This document shows positions 5,429 to 54,065 of a stretch of DNA of 64,000 nt, piece after piece. Location: the NCBI RefSeq assembly GCF_014522265.1, contig NZ_CP017024.1, positions 469,501 through 533,500 on the forward strand, written 5' to 3'. The stretch's first letter is position 1; every line of letters begins with the position of its first letter. A program made the translations under genes and the position numbers. This DNA is from Pseudomonas oryzihabitans (GTDB lineage: Bacteria; Pseudomonadota; Gammaproteobacteria; Pseudomonadales; Pseudomonadaceae). The notes under the pieces were generated by a model, which worked only from the letters and a program-made list of their open reading frames with translations, was not told where the DNA came from and ran no database searches.

Positions 5429-5489
5429 AAAGTGATGTCTTAAGAAGAGGTCTCAGACCCCGGGCGCAGAGGCCAGGAGGGAGGGGTGC

Positions 5490-5843
5490 GAGAGCCGACC
5501 TGTAAGCCGGGTTCTGTCGAGGACAGTCATTCCTCTGGGACAACCATCGCTGATTGCCTCTAGCGACCTACCCGAATCCAGCGCGGGCCACGCCTATGGA
5601 TTCCTATTTGGTCTTGCTCCAGGTGGGGTTTACCTAGCCACGAACTGTTGCCAGCCGTGCGGTGCGCTCTTACCGCACCTTTTCACCCTTACCGGCGCTT
5701 GCGCGCTTAGGCGGTTATTTTCTGTGGCACTTTCCGTAGGCTCACGCCTCCCAGGCGTTACCTGGCACCTCGCCCTATGGAGCCCGGACTTTCCTCCCTC
5801 GCAACCCTTGCGGATCACGACAGCGACTGCCCGGTCGGCTCTC
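5490..5843 (-). ncRNA. rnpB: RNase P RNA component (type A)
   Basis: Read on the minus strand the region begins AGAGCCGACCGGGCAGTC and ends in CTTACAGGTCGGCTCT, which closes helix P1. Between them are the conserved GAGGAAAGTCCGGGCTCC block, the GGTAAGGGTGAAAAGGTG region and the AACCCGGCTTAC 3' segment, all close to the Pseudomonas RNase P RNA. Ends are estimated from the P1 pairing and may be off by a few bases. A TATACC hexamer about 10 nt upstream of the 5' end is a plausible -10. It matures tRNA 5' ends with RnpA. Position between rsmI and mraZ is usual for pseudomonads. Confidence 0.95.
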
Positions 5844-13584: not shown

Positions 13585-13776
13585 GCCGGGAGCTGACCGG
13601 CCGGCCAGGCCGGGTGTCCTGAAGGACGCTGGCGGCGTCTGATGGACAGGATGGGCGAGCGGCAGCACCATGGGCCCTCGCCATTCCCGATCGCTGCGCC
13701 AACCTCCTGCACTGTGGATCGACGCAGGCGCGGCCAGCGCCGCCAGGTTCTACCCATCGTTCCAAGGAATTCAGGC

Positions 13777-14298
13777 ATGTCCAGACGTCACCTCATACTC
13801 ACAGCTGCGGTGCTTTCCCTGACTGGCTGCGGTGGCTATGACTACAGTTGCGATGCGGCCAAGACCGCCGAGCTGGTCCGTCAGCAATACGCCCAGACCA
13901 TCAACGAGATCTATGCGGACGACATCGCCGCCGGCCAGCCTGCGCTGGAAGCCGGCCAGGTGTCGCTGGTCGACATCAAGACCCAGGAAGAACCCTCGGA
14001 CAGCGGCGAAGCAGGCTTCTATACCTGCAACGCGACCGTCGAGGCCACCTGGCCCAAGGCCGCCCTCGAGCGCCTGGCTCCAGCTGCCGCCCAGCTGGCC
14101 AGTGTCGGCGCCATCCTCGAGAACGGCCACCTGCGCCATGCGCTGAGCTACGAGTCCTCGCTGGAAGGCAGCGACAAGCAGCGCGTCGACATCACCCTGC
14201 CCGAAGCCGTGGACCTGAGTCTCAAGACCCTGGCCGGCCAGGAGCCCATGGACGAATATCTGGAAGACGCCCCCGACGGCGAACAGGAAGCGCCCTAG
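13777..14298 (+). CDS. Hypothetical lipoprotein
   Basis: A 173-residue protein with a signal peptide and lipobox SLTGC (Cys near residue 18). Acidic stretches occur at the C-terminus (EYLEDAPDGEQE), and two further cysteines lie in the mature part (YSCDAAK and FYTCNATV) that could form a disulfide. AAGGAA precedes the ATG. I do not recognise the family. The stop codon TAG (14296-14298) directly abuts the palindromic repeat element at 14298-14470, which may act as its 3' end. Confidence 0.75.
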   Translation: MSRRHLILTAAVLSLTGCGGYDYSCDAAKTAELVRQQYAQTINEIYADDIAAGQPALEAGQVSLVDIKTQEEPSDSGEAGFYTCNATVEATWPKAALERLAPAAAQLASVGAILENGHLRHALSYESSLEGSDKQRVDITLPEAVDLSLKTLAGQEPMDEYLEDAPDGEQEAP

Positions 14299-14470
14299 GC
14301 CTTGCCTGAAAAGTGCCTGCGCTCGGTCATGCGGCGTTAAAAATCCGCTGGGTCGCCAGTCCGATCGGAATGCTCATTTACCCTTCGTGAAATCGAGCGC
14401 GAGTCCGATCCGCTTCCTCACGGATTTTTGCCTTGCCTGACCATCGCTCGGCGACTTTCAGGCAAGTCCT
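14298..14470. repeat. 173-bp near-palindromic repeat, copy A
   Basis: About 88 % identical by eye to 52109-52282 in the same orientation. Its ends are inverted repeats (CTTGCCTGAAAAGT against ACTTTCAGGCAAG). Internal stretches also mirror each other: GTTAAAAATCCG near the left and CGGATTTTTGCC near the right, GGTCA against TGACC, and a central TCCGATCGGA. The strand could fold back into one long imperfect hairpin. It begins at the stop codon of the preceding lipoprotein. TA flanks both ends, which would fit a TA target duplication, but two bases are weak evidence. No coding capacity. It may be a MITE or a structured RNA repeat. Confidence 0.8.
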
Positions 14471-14702
14471 ACCCCTTGGACGCCGGCCTGCTGTGCAGTG
14501 CTGGCGCCCGGGTGTATGATCCGAATTCCCCTCCGCCAGCATCCTCCGGCGGGTTCGTGAGCCCTGGCAGCCCCTGTGGAGATCCCGCATGGCGTGGCCG
14601 CCCTCCGGCCCGGCAACCGTCACTCCGCGTTTGCACCGTGCCTCGTCTGCGCTCACGATGACCAGAACCGTGATCTAGAAAGCCGCCTCGGAGAGACGCT
14701 TC
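14471..14702 (+). other. Leader region upstream of ilvD
   Basis: No gene here. A TATGAT hexamer at 14515-14520, with TGTGCA 17 bp upstream, is a candidate promoter (weak -35). Downstream are a CCGCC/GGCGG hairpin near 14532-14551 and an untranslated leader of about 175 nt. No Leu/Ile/Val-rich leader peptide or attenuator typical of ilv operons was found. Confidence 0.35.
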
Positions 14703-16538
14703 ATGCCTGACTATCGCTCGAAAACCTCCACCCAGGGCCGCAACATGGCCGGCGCCCGGGCGCTCTGGCGCGCCACCGGGATGAAGGACGAAGACTTCAA
14801 GAAGCCCATCATCGCCATCGCCAACTCCTTTACCCAGTTCGTGCCGGGCCATGTCCATCTCAAGGACCTCGGCCAGCTGGTCGCCCGGGAGATCGAGAAG
14901 GCTGGCGGCGTGGCCAAGGAATTCAACACCATCGCCGTGGACGACGGCATCGCCATGGGCCACGACGGCATGCTCTATTCGCTGCCGAGTCGCGAGATCA
15001 TCGCCGACGCCGTGGAATACATGGTCAATGCCCACTGCGCCGATGCCCTGGTGTGCATTTCCAACTGCGACAAGATCACCCCCGGCATGCTGATGGCCGC
15101 CCTGCGCCTGAACATCCCGGTGGTGTTCGTCTCCGGTGGCCCCATGGAAGCCGGCAAGACCAAGCTGGCCAGCCATGGCCTGGACCTGGTGGACGCCATG
15201 GTCATCGCCGCCGACAGCTCGGCCAGCGACGAGAAGGTCGCCGAATACGAACGCAGCGCCTGCCCCACCTGTGGCAGCTGCTCGGGCATGTTCACCGCCA
15301 ACTCCATGAACTGCCTGGTCGAGGCCCTCGGCCTGGCCCTGCCCGGCAACGGCTCGACCCTGGCCACCCACGCCGACCGCAAGGAGCTGTTCCTGCAGGC
15401 CGGCCGCACCATCGTCGAGCTGTGCCGTCGCTACTACCAGGAAAACGACGAGTCGGCGCTGCCGCGCAACATTGCCTGCCATGCGGCCTTCGAGAACGCC
15501 ATGACCCTGGACATCGCCATGGGCGGCTCGACCAACACCATCCTGCACCTGCTGGCCGCCGCCCAGGAGGCGGAGGTGGACTTCGATCTGCGCGACATCG
15601 ATGCCCTGTCGCGCAAGGTGCCGCAGCTGTGCAAGGTGGCGCCGAACATCCAGAAGTACCACATGGAAGACGTGCACCGCGCCGGGGGCATCTTCAGCAT
15701 CCTCGGCGAACTGGCCCGCGGCGGTCTCCTGCATGCCGATCTGCCCACCGTGCACAGCCGGACCCTGGGCGAAGCCATCGAGCGGTGGGACATCACCCTG
15801 ACCCAGGACGAGGCGGTGAAGACCTTCTTCCGTGCCGGTCCCGCCGGCATCCCGACCCAGGAAGCCTTCAGCCAGGCGACTCGCTATGACACCCTGGACG
15901 ACGACCGCGCCGAGGGCTGCATCCGCAGTGTCGCGCATGCCTATTCCCAGGAAGGCGGTCTGGCCGTGCTCTACGGCAACATCGCCCTGGACGGCTGCGT
16001 GGTGAAGACCGCCGGCGTGGATGAATCCATCCATGTGTTCGAGGGCAATGCCAAGGTCTTCGAAAGCCAGGACGCGGCGGTGCGCGGCATCCTCGCCGAC
16101 GAGGTCAAGGCCGGCGACATCGTCATCATCCGCTACGAAGGGCCCAAGGGCGGCCCGGGCATGCAGGAGATGCTCTACCCCACCAGCTACCTGAAGTCCA
16201 AGGGCCTGGGCAAGCAGTGCGCCCTGCTCACCGACGGTCGCTTCTCCGGCGGCACCTCGGGCCTGTCCATCGGCCATGCCTCGCCGGAAGCCGCGGCGGG
16301 CGGTGCCATCGGCCTGGTGCGGGATGGCGACAAGGTGCTGATCGACATTCCCCAGCGCAGCATCAACCTGCTGGTGAGTGACGAAGAGCTGTCCCACCGC
16401 CGCATCGAGCAGGACAAGCTGGGCTGGAAGCCGGCACAACCCCGTGCCCGCCGCGTGACCACCGCGCTCAAGGCCTACGCCCTGCTGGCCACCAGTGCCG
16501 ACAAGGGCGGCGTGCGCGACAAGGCCCTGCTGGGCTGA
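14703..16538 (+). CDS. ilvD: Dihydroxy-acid dehydratase
   Basis: A 611-residue enzyme, the standard IlvD length. It contains the iron-sulfur and active-site motifs [36 protein letters not shown] and the [14 protein letters not shown] region. It dehydrates 2,3-dihydroxy-isovalerate and -methylvalerate to the 2-oxo acids, the third common step of valine and isoleucine synthesis, in the cytoplasm. GAGAG precedes the ATG. It is monocistronic here, closed by the 16548-16577 hairpin. The related IlvD/Edd protein at 52281-54065 is a sugar-acid dehydratase and a paralogue. Confidence 0.97.
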
Positions 16539-25585: not shown

Positions 25586-25616
25586 GCAGCCTCCCGGTCC
25601 GCCGCCAGTCTACGCC

Positions 25617-35950: not shown

Positions 35951-36029
35951 CCAGCGTTTGGCTGGAGCCTTTTCAGAATCTTGCGAGCTAGAGCCAAACA
36001 AGGCTCGGGCGGCCCCGCAAAAACGCCTT

Positions 36030-36085
36030 AGGCAGCGGATCGGACCCGCGCTTGGTGTTTACACAGGGTAGACGACGGGGTCGGC
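36030..36085 (-). repeat. Possible diverged fragment of the 173-bp repeat family
   Basis: AGCGGATCGGACCCGCGCT at 36033-36051 is identical to the reverse complement of an internal part of copy B. The similarity continues loosely (GG-TTTAC, then a divergent stretch); the flanking AAAA and AGG also match. No terminal inverted repeats are recognisable. The gap 35956-36141 also has GTTTGGCT / AGCCAAAC as an inverted repeat. This may be a relic or a different, related element. Confidence 0.35.
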
Positions 36086-36141
36086 CTTCCAGAGTGTTTG
36101 CAATGCCGTCTGGCCGACACGCAGCCGATTATGAACAGGCT

Positions 36142-36732
36142 TCAGGCCTGGAAATCACCTTGCAGATCCACCAGATGGCGCTCGATGTCGGCCAGGCGCT
36201 GGCCCTGATCGCTCATGCCCAGCCAATCCAGCTTGAGGTGCGCCTCGAACGGCAGCAGATAGGCCAGCTGGCAGCCCAGGGCCTGGCGGTCGACAACCTC
36301 GCCGCCCATGTCCAGGCTGGCCACCATCGGATGCTGGGCCAGGGCCGCCAGCAGCGCCATCAGGTCGGCGTCGCCATCGCGTAGCGGCTGGGGATCGGTT
36401 TCCGGGAGCCACTCCACCTCACCCACCACCAGGTGATCGGGTTGCTCTTCCTGGCTCAGCAGGCGAAAGCGCCGTCCGCCTTCGATGCGGATACCCAGCA
36501 GGCCGTTGCTCTGCTGCTGCCAGTCGCGGATCAGCGCCTCGCAACCGTAGGCACCCAGGCGATTCGGCGCGCCACCGGTCTCGCGGCCTTCGAGGATGGT
36601 CACCACGCCAAAGCTGCTGCCCTGCTTGAGGCAGCGACCGAGCATGTCCAGATAGCGGGCTTCGAACAGCTGCAGATCAAGGCGGCAGCCGGGGAACAGG
36701 GTGGTATTGAGCGGAAACAGGGACAGCGTCAT
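36142..36732 (-). CDS. LON-substrate-binding-domain protein
   Basis: A 196-residue protein from the ATG at 36732 (GGAGG 5 nt upstream) that consists of the LON N-terminal domain alone. Diagnostic text: LSLFPLNTTLFPGCRLDLQLFEARYLDMLGRCL and FGVVTILEGRE. The AAA+ and protease parts of Lon are absent. It is cytoplasmic, function unknown. In pseudomonads it sits in the same block as parC and parE, as here. Confidence 0.88.
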   Translation of the reverse strand: MTLSLFPLNTTLFPGCRLDLQLFEARYLDMLGRCLKQGSSFGVVTILEGRETGGAPNRLGAYGCEALIRDWQQQSNGLLGIRIEGGRRFRLLSQEEQPDHLVVGEVEWLPETDPQPLRDGDADLMALLAALAQHPMVASLDMGGEVVDRQALGCQLAYLLPFEAHLKLDWLGMSDQGQRLADIERHLVDLQGDFQA

Positions 36733-49014: not shown

Positions 49015-49130
49015 CGAGGCTCTCCTGGTGGGCGCGTTGCCGAGGGAAGAACCTGGACGAAGGGTGGGCACGCAGGAAGAGGCAAGCCCGGACGGATGGC
49101 GACCACGGATGGAGACGGCGGACGCCCTCT

Positions 49131-49236
49131 TGTTCCCTACGCAGGTTGACGCACCGCCATGCGGCGCGCCTAGCCTGATCAGGTTCAACGGGATCCGGGA
49201 CTACCCGATCTCAGCGCCTCGTAGCGCACCCCGACA
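49131..49236 (-). promoter_or_regulatory. TPP riboswitch (THI element) upstream of thiC
   Basis: Read on the minus strand, the region has GGGGTGC near its 5' end, the core CGCTGAGATCGGG, the conserved GAACCTGATCAGGCTAG, and TGCGTAGGGAACA at the 3' end. These are the P2, J and P4/P5 consensus segments of the thiamin-pyrophosphate riboswitch. It starts near 49236 and leaves about 115 nt before the thiC ATG. It would lower thiC (and probably cytX) expression when TPP is plentiful. Confidence 0.95.
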
Positions 49237-49352
49237 AGAACGTGGCCAGTGTAAACCCAGAGCGGCAGAAACTTCGACCGCTATTTCCTCTCCTATGGCG
49301 GATTCGGACGAAGCCACTACACTGGCGCGGTCCCTCAAGGAAGGCTCCAAGA

Positions 49353-50849
49353 ATGCGAAGATTCCTGCTGCTCGCGGCGCTCTGCAGCACGGCCGGGCTG
49401 GCCCAGGCCCAGGTCGCCGGCAATGGCCTGCTCGACGTCTACCGCGAAGCGCTGGACAACAATGCCGACCTCGCCGCCGAACGCGCCGGGCTTGGCGCCC
49501 AGCGCGAGGCGGTGCCCCAGGCGCGCGCCGGCCTGCTGCCGCAGATCGGGCTCGGTGCCCAGTTCAACGACACCCATACCAGCCTGCAGCTCAAGGACAA
49601 TCCGGCGCTGGGCGTCCAGGGTGGCCGCTACAGCAGCGATCGCAGCAGCCAGCTGATCCAGGCGACCCTCAGCCAGCCACTGTTCCGCGCCGATCGCTGG
49701 TTCCAGCTCAAGGCGGCCAAGGCCGCCACCGAGCAGGCCGAGCTGCAGTTTTCCGCCGCCCAGCAGCAGCTCATCCTGCAGACCGCCGAGGGCTATTTCA
49801 GCGCCCTGCGCGCCCAGGACGCCCTGGCCACTGCTCGCGCCGAGGAAAAGGCGCTGTACCGTCAGCTGGACCAGTCCCGCGAGCGTTACAAGGTCGGCCT
49901 GACCGACGACACCGACGTGCTCCAGGCCCAGGCCAGCTTCGACAACGCCCAGGCCAACCGCTCCCAGAGCGAGCAGCAGGTGGCCGACGCCTTCCAGGCC
50001 CTGACCCGGCTGACCGATCGCGACTATGGCAGCATCGCCGGTATCCGCCACGACCTGCCGATCCTGCCGCCACAACCCAACGATGCCCGCCAGTGGGTGG
50101 ACACCGCCATGCGCCAGAATCTGCAATTGCTGGCTGCCGGCCAGGGTGTCAATGCGGCCCAGGAAACCCTGCGCCAGCGTCGCGCCGGGCACCTGCCGAC
50201 GGTGGATGCGGTGGCGCGCTACAGCCACAGCGACAACGATGCGGTGAATCTGCCCAACGCCGAGCAGCTGTCCCTGTTCGGCAGCCCGGTCAACAGCCGC
50301 AGCATCGGTATCCAGGTCGAGGTGCCGCTGTACAGCGGCGGCGCCACCAGCTCCCAGGCGCGTCAGGCCTACCAGCAGCTGGACCGCAGTGAGCAGCAGC
50401 AGGAAAGCCTGCGCCGCCAGGTGGTGCAGAACACCCGCAACGCCCATCGGGCGATCAACACCGACATCGAGCAGGTGCGCGCCCGACGGCTGTCCATCGC
50501 CTCCAGCCAGCGCGCCCTGAGAGCCACTGAGATCGCCTACCAGGTGGGCAGCCGTACCATCGTCGACGTGCTCGACGCCCAGCGGCTGCTGTACAACGCC
50601 GTGCGCCAGTACAACGACGCCCGCTACAACTACATCCTGGACACTCTGAGACTCAAGCAGGCGGCCGGCACCCTGGCGCCCAACGACCTGCTGGCCCTGT
50701 CCGGCTATCTCGATCCCCACTACGACCCGGATCGCGACTTCCTGCCGCCGGACCTGGCCAAGACCCGCGCCGACGTCCTGCCGGCACGTTCCGCTCAGGG
50801 CTTGAGCAGTCCGTCGAGCCCGGAGAGCAGGCGCTCCAGCGCGCCCTGA
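49353..50849 (+). CDS. tolC: TolC-family outer-membrane efflux protein
   Basis: A 498-residue protein from the ATG at 49353 (AAGGAAGG upstream). The signal peptide is MRRFLLLAALCSTAGLAQAQ. Two OEP domains are visible, with LDVYREALDNNADLAAERA at the start and QLYNA-like VVDVLDAQRLLYNAVRQYNDARYNYILDTLRLKQAAG at the end of the second. It forms the exit channel for type I secretion and tripartite pumps. The last 55 nt overlap waaA tail to tail, giving an extra-long C-terminus (LPARSAQGLSSPSSPE). Confidence 0.93.
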   Translation: MRRFLLLAALCSTAGLAQAQVAGNGLLDVYREALDNNADLAAERAGLGAQREAVPQARAGLLPQIGLGAQFNDTHTSLQLKDNPALGVQGGRYSSDRSSQLIQATLSQPLFRADRWFQLKAAKAATEQAELQFSAAQQQLILQTAEGYFSALRAQDALATARAEEKALYRQLDQSRERYKVGLTDDTDVLQAQASFDNAQANRSQSEQQVADAFQALTRLTDRDYGSIAGIRHDLPILPPQPNDARQWVDTAMRQNLQLLAAGQGVNAAQETLRQRRAGHLPTVDAVARYSHSDNDAVNLPNAEQLSLFGSPVNSRSIGIQVEVPLYSGGATSSQARQAYQQLDRSEQQQESLRRQVVQNTRNAHRAINTDIEQVRARRLSIASSQRALRATEIAYQVGSRTIVDVLDAQRLLYNAVRQYNDARYNYILDTLRLKQAAGTLAPNDLLALSGYLDPHYDPDRDFLPPDLAKTRADVLPARSAQGLSSPSSPESRRSSAP

Positions 50850-52060
50850 TTGGCGGCCAATACCGCCAGGCCCGCCTGACGACGCCGAGCGGCTTCCGCC
50901 GGTTCGGCCCAGAGCCGGGCCACGGCGGCAGCGATGGCCGAGGCTTCCGCTACTGTTTCCAAAGCGCCGGCGTCGCGCAACTGGGCGACGATGTCGAGGA
51001 AGTTGAATACGTGCGGTCCGCTGAGCACCGGCACGCCGAGAGCGGCCGGCTCGAGCGGGTTGTGCCCGCCGCGCTCGATCAGGCTGCCACCGACGAAGGC
51101 GACGTCGGCCAGGGCGTAGAGAAACAGCAGCTCGCCCATGGTGTCGCCCAGCAGGACCTGGGTCTGCGGTTGCACCGCCTCCCCCGTCGAGCGCTGGATC
51201 ACGCTGAAGCCTTCACCCCGCACCTCGCCCAGCACCTCGGGAAAGCGTTCGGGATGACGCGGCACCAGGATCAGCAGGGCATCGGGACGGGTGGCCAGCA
51301 GTTGGCGCTGGGCCTGGAGCAGGATCTCGTCTTCACCGGCATGGGTGCTGGCGGCGATCCACACCGGGCGACGGCCCCAGCCCTGGCGCAGCGCAGCCGC
51401 GCGCGCCGGCAGCTCGGGGTCGATGCGCAGGTCGAACTTGATGGAGCCGGTCACCGTGACCCGCTCGGCACGGGCACCGAGGGCGCGGAAGCGCTCGGCT
51501 TCCACCGGCGTCTGCACCGCCAGCCAGGCCAGCTCCGCCAGCATCGGCGCGGTCACCCCGCCCAGCTTGCCGTAGCCCCGGGCGGAGCGCTCGGACAGCC
51601 GGCCATTGGCCAGGGCGATGGGAATGTCGCGGCGCGCCGTCTGGTGAATGAGGTTGGGCCAGAGTTCGGTTTCCATCACCACCCCCAGGCTGGGCCGCAG
51701 GCGATCGAGGAAGCGTCCGGCCAGCCCCGGCAGGTCGTAGGGCAGATAACAGTGGTGGACGTCGCTGCCGAACAGGGCGCGAATGCGCTCCGAGCCGGTG
51801 GGCGTCATGCAGGTCACGGTGATCGGCAGCTGCGGATGGCGCTGGCGCAGCGCACGGATCACCGGCGCGGCGGCAATGCTCTCCCCCACCGACACCGCAT
51901 GCACCCAGATGCCGCCGGGCGGCACCTCTGGCAAGCCCAGCGCCAGGCGCTCGCCGATGCGTTGCCGATAGGCGGGAGCCTTGCGCCCGCGCCAGAGCAG
52001 GCGCAGCAGGATGAAGGGCAAGGCCAGGGTGAAGATCAGGCTATAGAGGGTACGGTTCAT
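50795..52060 (-). CDS. waaA: 3-deoxy-D-manno-octulosonic acid transferase
   Basis: A 421-residue enzyme from the ATG at 52060; in-frame upstream codons lack support. N-terminal membrane anchor NRTLYSLIFTLALPFILLRLLW, then GIWVHAVSVGESIAAAPVIRALR (the Kdo-transferase N-domain), VMETELWPNL, and the C-terminal GT-B domain GGSLIERGGHNPLEPAALGVPVLSGP. It adds Kdo to lipid A on the inner face of the inner membrane, an essential step. Its end overlaps the tolC 3' end by 55 nt on the other strand. Confidence 0.95.
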   Translation of the reverse strand: MNRTLYSLIFTLALPFILLRLLWRGRKAPAYRQRIGERLALGLPEVPPGGIWVHAVSVGESIAAAPVIRALRQRHPQLPITVTCMTPTGSERIRALFGSDVHHCYLPYDLPGLAGRFLDRLRPSLGVVMETELWPNLIHQTARRDIPIALANGRLSERSARGYGKLGGVTAPMLAELAWLAVQTPVEAERFRALGARAERVTVTGSIKFDLRIDPELPARAAALRQGWGRRPVWIAASTHAGEDEILLQAQRQLLATRPDALLILVPRHPERFPEVLGEVRGEGFSVIQRSTGEAVQPQTQVLLGDTMGELLFLYALADVAFVGGSLIERGGHNPLEPAALGVPVLSGPHVFNFLDIVAQLRDAGALETVAEASAIAAAVARLWAEPAEAARRRQAGLAVLAANQGALERLLSGLDGLLKP

Positions 52061-52108
52061 GGCGGCAGAGCTTAATGAAGCTATGCCGCCAGTGCGAGCC
52101 CGTTCCAA

Positions 52109-52282
52109 GGCTTTGTCTGAAAAGTGCCTGCACTCGGTCAGGCGGCGTTAAAAATCCGCTGGATCGCCAGCCCGGCCGGAATGCTCATTTACCACTCGTA
52201 AACCCGAGCGCGGGTCCGATCCGCTCCCTCACGGACTTTTGCCTTGCCTGACCTTCGCTCGGCGACTTTTCAGACAAGCCTT
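52109..52282. repeat. 173-bp near-palindromic repeat, copy B
   Basis: The second copy of the element at 14298-14470, same plus-strand orientation, about 88 % identical by eye. Terminal inverted repeats: GCTTTGTCTGAAAAGT on the left and ACTTTTCAGACAAGC on the right. The right end overlaps the stop codon (TTA on plus, 52281-52283) of the minus-strand dehydratase, and the left end is 48 nt from the waaA start. As in copy A, one end meets the stop codon of a gene. No ORF. Confidence 0.8.
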
Positions 52283-54065
52283 AATGCGAGTGCCGCGGCA
52301 CCCCGCCTTCGCGGGCGATCACCTTGAGGTGCAGGGTGGCCGGTTCCAGGCAGCCGCCGGTGGAAAGCTGGCCCACCAGTTGCCGATAGAGCTCCTGCCA
52401 GGGGGTCTGGGCCGGCGGCAGGTTGGGCGTCCATTCAGCACGACGGCGCTCCAGTTCGGCATCATCCAGCAGCACATCGACGCTGCGGGCATTGAGGTCC
52501 ACACGCAAACGGTCGTTGGTCTTGAGCAGTGCCAGGCCACCGCCCACCGCCGCTTCCGGCGACATGTTGAGGATCGATGGACTGGCCGAGGTACCGCTCT
52601 GGCGACCGTCGCCCAGGCACGGCAGGGAGTCGATGCCCTTCTTGATCAGCGCCGCCGGCGGGGCCATGTTGACCACCTCGGCGCTGCCCGGATAACCCAC
52701 CGGCCCGGCGCCGCGGATCACCAGGATGCAGCGCTCGTCGATGTCCAGGGCCGGGTCGTCGATGCGCGCGTGATAGTCCTCCGGACCCTCGAAGACGATG
52801 GCTCGCGCCTCGAAGCTGTTTTCCTTGCCCGGTTCCGCCAGATAGGTCTGGCGAAAGGCCTCGCCCACCACCGACATCTTCATGATGGCACTGTCGAAGA
52901 AATTGCCGCTGAGCACGATGAAGCCGGCGCGGTGCTTGAGCGGCGCTTCGTAGGGCTGGATCACGGCGGGATCTGTGCTGGCCGCACCTTCGGCGATGGC
53001 ACCGATGGTGCGCCCGGATACCGTCATACAGTCGCCGTGCAGGCGTCCCGCCTTGAGCAGTTCGTGGAGCACCGCCGGCACCCCGCCGGCGCGGTGGAAG
53101 CCCTCGCCCAGGTACTTGCCGGCCGGCATGCAGTTGGCCAGCAGCGGGATGTCCTCGCCCAGGCGCTGCCAGTCGTCCAGCGACAGTTCCACGCCCATGT
53201 GGCGGGCGATGGCGATCAGGTGCGGCGGGCAGTTGCTGGAAGCACCCAGGGCCGAAGCCACCACGATGGCGTTCTCGAAGGCCTCGCGGGTCATGATCTG
53301 CGAGGGGCGGACGTCGTCCAGCACCAGCTGGCAGATGCGCTTGCCGGTGGCATAGGCCATCTGGCCGCGCTCGCGATAGGGCGCGGGGATGCTGGCACAG
53401 CCGGGCAGCGACATGCCCAGGGTCTCGGCCAGGGCATTCATCGACAGGGCCGTGCCCATGGTGTTGCAGTGGCCCACCGAGGGCGAGGCGGCGGTGGTCA
53501 GGGCCATGAAGCCCTCGTAGTCGATCTCGCCGGTCGCCAGCAGGTTGCGCGCGTGCCAGAGCACCGTGCCGGAGCCGATCAGCTCGCCCTTGAAATGCCC
53601 GTCCAGCATGGGCCCACCGGACAGCACGATGGCTGGCAGGTCGGTGGTGGCCGCGGCCATCAGGCAGGCTGGGGTGGTCTTGTCGCAGCCGGTGGTGAGC
53701 ACCACGCCGTCCAGGGGAAAGCCGTGGAGGATCTCCACCAGGCAGAGATAGGCCAGGTTGCGATCCAGGGCCGCGGTGGGGCGGCGACTCTGCTCGGCGA
53801 TGGGGTGCACCGGGAACTCCATGGGGATGCCGCCCGCGTCGCGGATACCGGCCTTGACCCGCTGGGCCAGCTCCAGGTGATGACGATTGCAGGGGGTGAG
53901 GTCGCTGCCAGTCTGGGCGATGCCGATGATGGGGCGACCGGACTGGAGTTCGTCGCGGGTCAGGCCGTAGTTCATGTAGCGCTCGACATAGAGCGCGGTC
54001 ATGTCGGCGTGGACAGGATCATCGAACCATTGCTGGCTGCGCAGCGGGCGTTTGGCGGAAGTCAT
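52281..54065 (-). CDS. IlvD/Edd family sugar-acid dehydratase (xylonate/arabonate type)
   Basis: A 594-residue Fe-S dehydratase. MTALYVERYMNYGLTRDEL, TTGCDKTTPACLMAA, SPSVGHCNTMGTA and GDGRQSGTSASPSILN place it in the pentonate/hexonate-dehydratase branch (L-arabonate, D-xylonate), distinct from IlvD at 14703. It would dehydrate an aldonic acid to a 2-keto-3-deoxy acid. The gene 32 nt upstream encodes an FAH-family protein that could carry out the next step (XylX-like). The substrate is inferred, not shown. Confidence 0.85.
   Translation of the reverse strand: MTSAKRPLRSQQWFDDPVHADMTALYVERYMNYGLTRDELQSGRPIIGIAQTGSDLTPCNRHHLELAQRVKAGIRDAGGIPMEFPVHPIAEQSRRPTAALDRNLAYLCLVEILHGFPLDGVVLTTGCDKTTPACLMAAATTDLPAIVLSGGPMLDGHFKGELIGSGTVLWHARNLLATGEIDYEGFMALTTAASPSVGHCNTMGTALSMNALAETLGMSLPGCASIPAPYRERGQMAYATGKRICQLVLDDVRPSQIMTREAFENAIVVASALGASSNCPPHLIAIARHMGVELSLDDWQRLGEDIPLLANCMPAGKYLGEGFHRAGGVPAVLHELLKAGRLHGDCMTVSGRTIGAIAEGAASTDPAVIQPYEAPLKHRAGFIVLSGNFFDSAIMKMSVVGEAFRQTYLAEPGKENSFEARAIVFEGPEDYHARIDDPALDIDERCILVIRGAGPVGYPGSAEVVNMAPPAALIKKGIDSLPCLGDGRQSGTSASPSILNMSPEAAVGGGLALLKTNDRLRVDLNARSVDVLLDDAELERRRAEWTPNLPPAQTPWQELYRQLVGQLSTGGCLEPATLHLKVIAREGGVPRHSH

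Follow-up and report, generated by a model that had tools for sequence, protein, structure and literature searches.

ERIC repeats (IRU, RU-1) are widely used for typing, and a paper of 2011 is said to describe their divergence among Gammaproteobacteria genomes. REP/REPIN sequences and integron attC sites are palindromic and, like the family described below, form folded single strands; to our knowledge, TA duplications and IS5-like ends are absent from both. The termini of ERIC elements are TA according to a 2007 review (PMC2229807), which also notes that a likeness to the ends of insertion sequences (ISs) had not been found, or not been sought, for bacterial repeats with the exception of RUP. 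MITEPsy1 of P. syringae is 100 nt long and has a reported 4-nt duplication; its ends are similar to those of the IS5-family element ISPsy2, its target is CTAG or YTAA, and its transposition was seen by the authors, as stated in PMC3189936. A further relative, sX9 (Rfam RF02228), is a 76-nt sequence from Xanthomonas that Rfam lists as an sRNA.

The window analysed here, a stretch of 64,000 nt from Pseudomonas oryzihabitans (contig NZ_CP017024.1), carries two copies, A and B, of a repeat that resembles ERIC in size, TA termini and terminal repeats. The folded core is also alike (GGAG-n-UAC, loop, GUA-n-UGA, on the same strand, with AAGGC before it and ACGC after it in most cases), but the outer arms differ. 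Compared by description only, MITEPsy1 and the present family are both MITEs with IS5-family-like ends, and differ in length and duplication. Among the titles and abstract openings listed in searches of the open-access PMC literature, none described the present family with IS5 ends, and a search of the same literature with core sequence words gave papers that, among the matches listed, look unrelated. The interpretation that best fits the data below, and which is probably correct, is that A and B belong to a MITE superfamily with a conserved folded core and swapped ends, moved in trans by IS5-family transposases, and that both are stranded in this genome. A wider, probably ERIC-related family whose ends match IS5 elements would make the question of its mobiliser directly testable.

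Copies in the window and their family

Copies A (14298-14470) and B (52109-52282) are 88.5-88.8 % identical, in agreement with the figure of about 88 % given in a preliminary description. Each is an imperfect palindrome with terminal inverted repeats and mirrored internal blocks, as had been claimed from the sequence, and each folds better than 200/200 dinucleotide shuffles (z -4.85 and -6.16). The stop codons said to abut both copies were also found, the left TA of copy A lying within the TAG of a plus-strand gene and the right end of copy B forming the TAA of a minus-strand gene (Table 1). The left TA of copy B is altered, and now reads A or CA. A fragment near 36033, suggested earlier to be an older copy, is the third, decayed copy of the window.

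Table 1. Features of the window related to the repeat copies (R1, R2: covariance models)
Feature	Position	Strand	Score or remark
Copy A	14298..14469 (TA-based boundary)	- (modelled strand; contains ...GTAAATGAGCATTCCG...)	R1 164.4 bits, R2 111.1 bits
Left TA of copy A	14296..14297		TA of the TAG that ends gene 13642-14298; sequence read
Right TA of copy A	14470..14471		Sequence read
Copy B	about 52108..52281 (TA-based boundary)	-	R1 174.7 bits, R2 119.8 bits
Right TA of copy B	52282..52283		Lies in the TAA that ends gene 52281-54065 (-)
Third copy, older and decayed, type 3	35962..36144	+	R1 26.1 bits, R2 35.2 bits
Gene with stop codon abutting copy A	13642..14298	+	218 aa
Dihydroxy-acid dehydratase gene, downstream of copy A	14703..16538	+	NF009103, 1173.9 bits
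Dihydroxy-acid dehydratase-family gene, stop abuts copy B	52281..54065	-	NF009560, 1075.1 bits
Kdo transferase gene, neighbour of copy B on its other side	50795..52060	-	NF004388, 602.2 bits

The product of the gene ending at copy A had no Pfam or NCBIfam match at E<=0.001. Dihydroxy-acid dehydratase-family genes (14703-16538 and 52281-54065) flank both A and B, which is probably a coincidence. At Rfam gathering scores the window contains only an RNase P RNA (5487-5842, minus strand) and a TPP riboswitch (49117-49243, minus strand). The segment 10244-10296 was considered as a fourth copy and rejected: its R1 match is weak (22.3 bits), R2 does not match it, and the sequence is that of an ordinary hairpin, long and near-perfect with A and T tracts, and a probable terminator. 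A phage home for copy B was looked for and gave no phage match. Four IMG/VR viral contigs contain the core pattern.

A search of the complete genome rules out both a chance likeness and a family of two copies only. There were 43 blastn matches to the repeat, and the covariance model R1, made from 14 aligned copies, gave 91 matches of 51-230 nt at E<=0.01 in the 5.05-Mb genome; for this count 150 of 2708 first-look candidates were scored, and the lowest-ranked match has a borderline 24.5 bits. The 91 matches miss at least one element (L067:20-181). Ninety of the genome's own matches were fetched with their flanks, the weakest being dropped. Two of the loci (L116 and L118, from position 1501; 51 and 52 nt) consist of the terminal stem alone, as if the interior had been lost between repeated CCGAGCG motifs. 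A module of about 62 nt sits at the same place in several copies (L082, L084 and L138 4549-4780), and may be another repeat family.

By R1, the family is present in 118/148 genomes of the Pseudomonadaceae (17 of 19 genera) and in 99/369 genomes of the class, and by the broader model R2 in 99/398 genomes of the phylum; the strict filters used for these large sets make the counts underestimates. Copy number across 13 genomes of the genus ranges from 1 to 136, the maximum being that of G010.

Fold, covariation and related repeats

Read on the modelled strand (minus for A and B), the element begins with a terminal arm of ~18 nt, followed by a second stem region, AAGGC and a short variable stem. 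The core hairpin, AGGAAGCGGAGTTTAC-5 nt-GTAAATGAGCATTCCGA, comes next; it is followed by the other half of the variable stem, AACGC and the pairing halves of the arms. Internal blocks of 16, 16, 14 and ~62 nt are optional.

Absence of compensatory changes in the stems had been named as a result that would speak against a structured family, and the opposite was found. Across 65 distinct sequences aligned from the whole class, both sides have changed in 49/53 pairs, 94.4 % of cells are paired compared with 70.5 % in shuffles, and the covariation score is 0.658, against 0.201 when shuffled and <=0.097 with the partner slid; these counts are tilted in favour of the structure, to which the alignment had been fitted. 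RNAalifold, run on an initial MAFFT alignment of 25 copies, gave both-sided changes in only 9/32 pairs, a low count due to misalignment of arms from different subfamilies. Arm pairing can also be scored independently of any model. On average 14.6 of 18 positions are Watson-Crick paired within a copy, as opposed to 10.1/18 with the arms of other copies, and the difference persists within subfamilies (15.3 vs 12.6, and 14.4 vs 12.2); copies <130 nt were dropped from the arm and context tests, and arms with <11 pairs from the arm pairing. The arms are therefore specific to each copy, and covary.

Such very strong covariation would be expected if the family were made up of structured RNAs or 3'-end terminators, with selection for a folded transcript explaining the copies and movement being incidental, a reading that we consider unlikely but not negligible. 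It gains from the kinds of mispair found in the terminal arms, where on one strand G-T exceeds A-C by 94 to 47 (83 copies, with the register set by Watson-Crick pairs only), and in structure-fitted alignments by 63 to 14, 195 to 72 and 168 to 44 (pair columns <60 % Watson-Crick left out). However, the sign is opposite in a whole-arm alignment that includes the internal loops (G-T 202, A-C 250; 76 copies). Resident copies at orthologous sites, moreover, change without clear compensation: at the site near 36000, 9 of 26 differences break pairs, this being the most divergent of five site pairs compared, as the other four have 2-8 differences. A terminator-like pattern (a GC stem followed by a T-run) matches once in each copy, the shuffle means being 0.2 and 0.3.

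The self-complementarity of copy-specific arms, within subfamilies included, could also arise at the DNA level. Template switching at quasi-palindromes would correct the hairpins and keep the arms complementary; the element would then be an ordinary IS5 MITE whose covariation arises as a by-product of mutation. This appears rather doubtful, since copies from across the class retain asymmetric internal loops that such correction would have removed, and since a symmetric DNA correction does not predict a strand-specific G-T excess (with which the whole-arm alignment disagrees).

The core looks related to that of ERIC. As far as can be told, R2 was built without enterobacterial sequences, and in 7/7 ERIC loci its best match is the ERIC element, on the same strand (two of these loci represent the same position in two strains of E. 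coli). Scores range from 32.6 to 11.0 bits, with rough E values of 5e-6 to 0.23, and the best other match has 7.2 bits; the E. coli elements, at 11.0-12.8 bits, are weak matches taken alone, and R1 has no match on two E. coli ERIC loci. Going by the order of motifs and the TA ends in common, descent of the family and of ERIC (a 127-bp element) from one ancestor is likely.

One subfamily overlaps the annotated sRNA family sX9, which again favours an RNA. On the strand opposite to the modelled one, sX9 matches one half of the type-4 subfamily with up to 91.9 bits; it spans half an element. Its cut-off is reached nowhere in the window, copies A and B included; genome-wide, seven of 14 matches are above the cut-off, and all seven lie inside copies of the family. 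Some sX9 annotations thus probably mark mobile elements and not sRNA genes. ERIC, sX9 and the present family may even belong to a single ancient superfamily of non-autonomous elements in Gammaproteobacteria and beyond, with the core under single-strand selection and the ends repeatedly exchanged, so that IS5-family transposases are parasitised in turn, a proposal that we rate at just under an even chance. If it were true, the missing mobiliser of ERIC would be an IS5-family enzyme.

Stop codons, target site and movement

Stop codons coincide with the edge in 59/87 copies (61/87 with a wider edge), and in only 0-3/87 when the edge is displaced by 30-200 nt; gene calls for these counts were crude (ORF length and GC3), and the figure of 59 leaves out read-through calls. 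Elements with paired ends numbered 210, of which 62 have TA on both sides, and in 50 of these 62 the context is YTAR; the end scoring preferred TA. The background in the window is 61 YTAR among 779 TA contexts. About 19 of 58 YTAR sites in the window fall at a gene-like stop, so that target choice and harmlessness explain much of the placement.

The placement is also biased in orientation. Among the genome's own copies, 38 have a stop only at the 3' edge and 10 only at the 5' edge (p 6e-5), and 78 elements from other genomes, some of the same genus, gave 26 at the 3' edge and 7 at the 5' edge after antisense duplicates were dropped. Smaller sets have the same sign and are non-significant (11 vs 4 for types 1/2 alone; 7 vs 1 for 33 elements of the family and class, own copies left out). 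With crude gene calls and related copies, the p values are only guides. The preliminary description had offered a family of structured RNAs or terminators as one of two readings; it is supported in part, as the stems covary very strongly and most copies lie at stop codons with a bias in orientation, while a function as RNA or terminator is only putative. The abutting gene is mostly at the 3' edge of the element, and its mRNA would carry the complement of the G-T-tolerant strand; this complement is the sX9 strand. That the genes mostly read the opposite strand argues against a selected transcript; single-stranded DNA, or selection within the mobile lineage rather than in mRNA, are possibilities.

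The family has moved. Four copies in one genome (G031) are identical over 145 nt, occupy four places, and are each flanked by TA in a YTAR context, which shows recent movement, and would require a mobility step under the RNA reading as well. Of three G010 copies that were fetched, two have the same sequence. The closest full-length pair among 85 copies compared in the P. oryzihabitans genome has 95.8 % identity.

Comparison with empty relatives had been proposed as a way of finding a TA duplication, and the duplication was seen, although at a minority of sites. When 231 located elements were compared with all loci, 20 entries had an empty or nearly empty counterpart, representing 11 distinct sites. 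A clean change from TA to TA-element-TA is present at two of these (L068/L144 and L032/L123), and at two more one of the TAs is altered (the own copy at 25615, where the right TA is now CA, and copy B). The remaining seven, copy A included, have no clean duplication. At the site of copy A, eight of nine aligned orthologous loci are empty and the ninth (G010) has a truncated remnant; at the position of the left TA the nine relatives read TGA or TAG, the empty ones mostly TGA. The site of copy B is empty in G002, G005 and G006, reading gatcc-TA-atgcg in G006; in G007 it holds another copy, inverted relative to B, and in G011 a copy of another subfamily. The 35962-36144 copy has filled counterparts in G005, G006 and G011, and is absent from G002 and G007.

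These features allow a mechanism to be proposed. An element of ~130-230 nt, with optional internal modules and carrying no transposase, would be moved by an IS5-family transposase encoded elsewhere, which would bind terminal arms that match the terminal repeats of its IS. Insertion at YTAR with duplication of TA is suggested by the terminal matches, the target context and the empty sites. In this genome YTAR is frequently found within the stop codon of a gene, and an element whose first base is G or A restores that codon as TAG or TAA, so that insertion does little harm. The YTAR target, together with the first base of the element rebuilding the stop, is a possible reason why such repeats abut stop codons. 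The interior is a folded core conserved across the class, with arms differing by lineage.

Terminal arms and IS5-family insertion sequences

The genus contains 41 matches to the IS5-type N-terminal family PF13340, and 25 of these loci were fetched. TA-flanked inverted ends like the arms of types 1/2 were found at six (L330, L331, L334, L336, L341 and L348). Compared with all arms, the six IS ends agree at 17, 17, 16, 15, 14 and 14 of 17 positions, whereas 299/300 control 17-mers agree at <=13/17, the remaining one starting at copy A's own TA. At the other 19 of the 25 loci an arm-like pair of ends was not found, and five of these, all from G010, have a matching left end. The left end of the G010 IS is 89.7 % identical to positions 1-29 of a G010 element. 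G010 has 20 PF13340 matches beside its 136 copies.

Matches were also found for other kinds of arm. For type 3, the arm agrees at 18/18 positions with one end of an IS5 element of 848 bp carried by a plasmid of Xanthomonas hortorum, a match that consists of a single BLAST row with E=4, backed by the inverted partner in the locus. A class-level arm agrees at 26/26 positions with one end of an element of 1406 bp carried by a plasmid of Rhizobium gallicum; a Microvirga relative of that element has a protein scoring 281.5 bits with IS5_4 (NCBIfam cut-off 140), and below the cut-off for IS1182. Pfam and NCBIfam gave IS5-type matches for seven scanned proteins, some of them under the NCBIfam whole-protein cut-off because they are split. 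Overall, three kinds of arm match three kinds of IS over the terminal 17-26 nt.

IS5-family ISs of the DUF4096 and IS5_4 types are thus like the family in these terminal nucleotides and in their TA-flanked ends, and unlike it in carrying transposase genes. When one element was aligned to nine IS loci, E<0.01 was reached by positions 1-29 and 127-144 only; this element has only its ends in common with the ISs, and its interior is not IS sequence. By the features that sequence can test, the element is a real, mobile and structured repeat and a MITE: it is short, multicopy and without a transposase gene, has terminal inverted repeats in common with autonomous ISs, and has a TA target-site duplication. 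Of the two readings offered in the preliminary description, a MITE with an IS-encoded transposase elsewhere is thus supported by copy number, by the TA duplication and by ends identical to IS5-family terminal repeats.

The match of the arms to IS5-family ends points to an IS5-family transposase as mobiliser, a different one for each kind of arm, and the element seems to survive by adopting ends that suit the resident transposase. Mobilisation in trans, the exchange of ends and a function of the core are what we infer from these comparisons. What is unusual is a core conserved across the class carrying ends that match different IS5-family elements in different lineages; for a transposon parasite, such a core with changing ends would be an unusual route of persistence.

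A transposase with matching ends, which the preliminary description had thought worth looking for, was found in sister species and on plasmids, and not in the genome itself, where there are zero matches to PF13340, PF01609 and PF13358, three DDE families that include the IS5 type, and one match to a Y1 transposase. Without a match to the three DDE families the genome's own copies look stranded and are probably immobile today, and A and B seem to be relics of a past active period.

Presence of an IS does not predict copy number. Three genomes without matches to PF13340, PF01609, PF13358 and Y1 (G002, G008 and G011) have 74, 50 and 81 copies, yet the low-copy genomes G001, G003 and G004 (15, 4 and 1 copies) carry 11, 5 and 2 IS5-type matches. 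Copy number thus does not follow the present ISs, and loss of an IS after a period of activity would explain high numbers without one. The same three genomes could instead point to a mobiliser other than IS5, such as IS630, Y1/RAYT or a route based on RNA or single-stranded DNA, the arm match then being convergence on similar repeats. IS630 is likewise compatible with a TA duplication. This alternative is quite improbable in view of identities of 17/17, 18/18 and 26/26 at exact ends with a TA-type target. IS630 matches occur in only 4/13 genomes of the genus, and the one IS630 element read, on a P. syringae plasmid beside an arm match, has different ends (11/17), the arm there belonging to a neighbouring IS5-type fragment. 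Dependence on Y1/RAYT was rejected as well. Of five genomes of the genus without a Y1 match, G003 has four copies and the other four have 50-105 (74 in G002, 50 in G008, 105 in G009 and 81 in G011), and absence of Y1 from several high-copy genomes also sets the family apart from REP/REPIN.

Not every IS5 element in the genus has arm-like ends. One such element (L337, from G004) has other ends, which agree with the arms at 11/17 positions. These ends equal those printed for ISPsy19 in PMC3189936.
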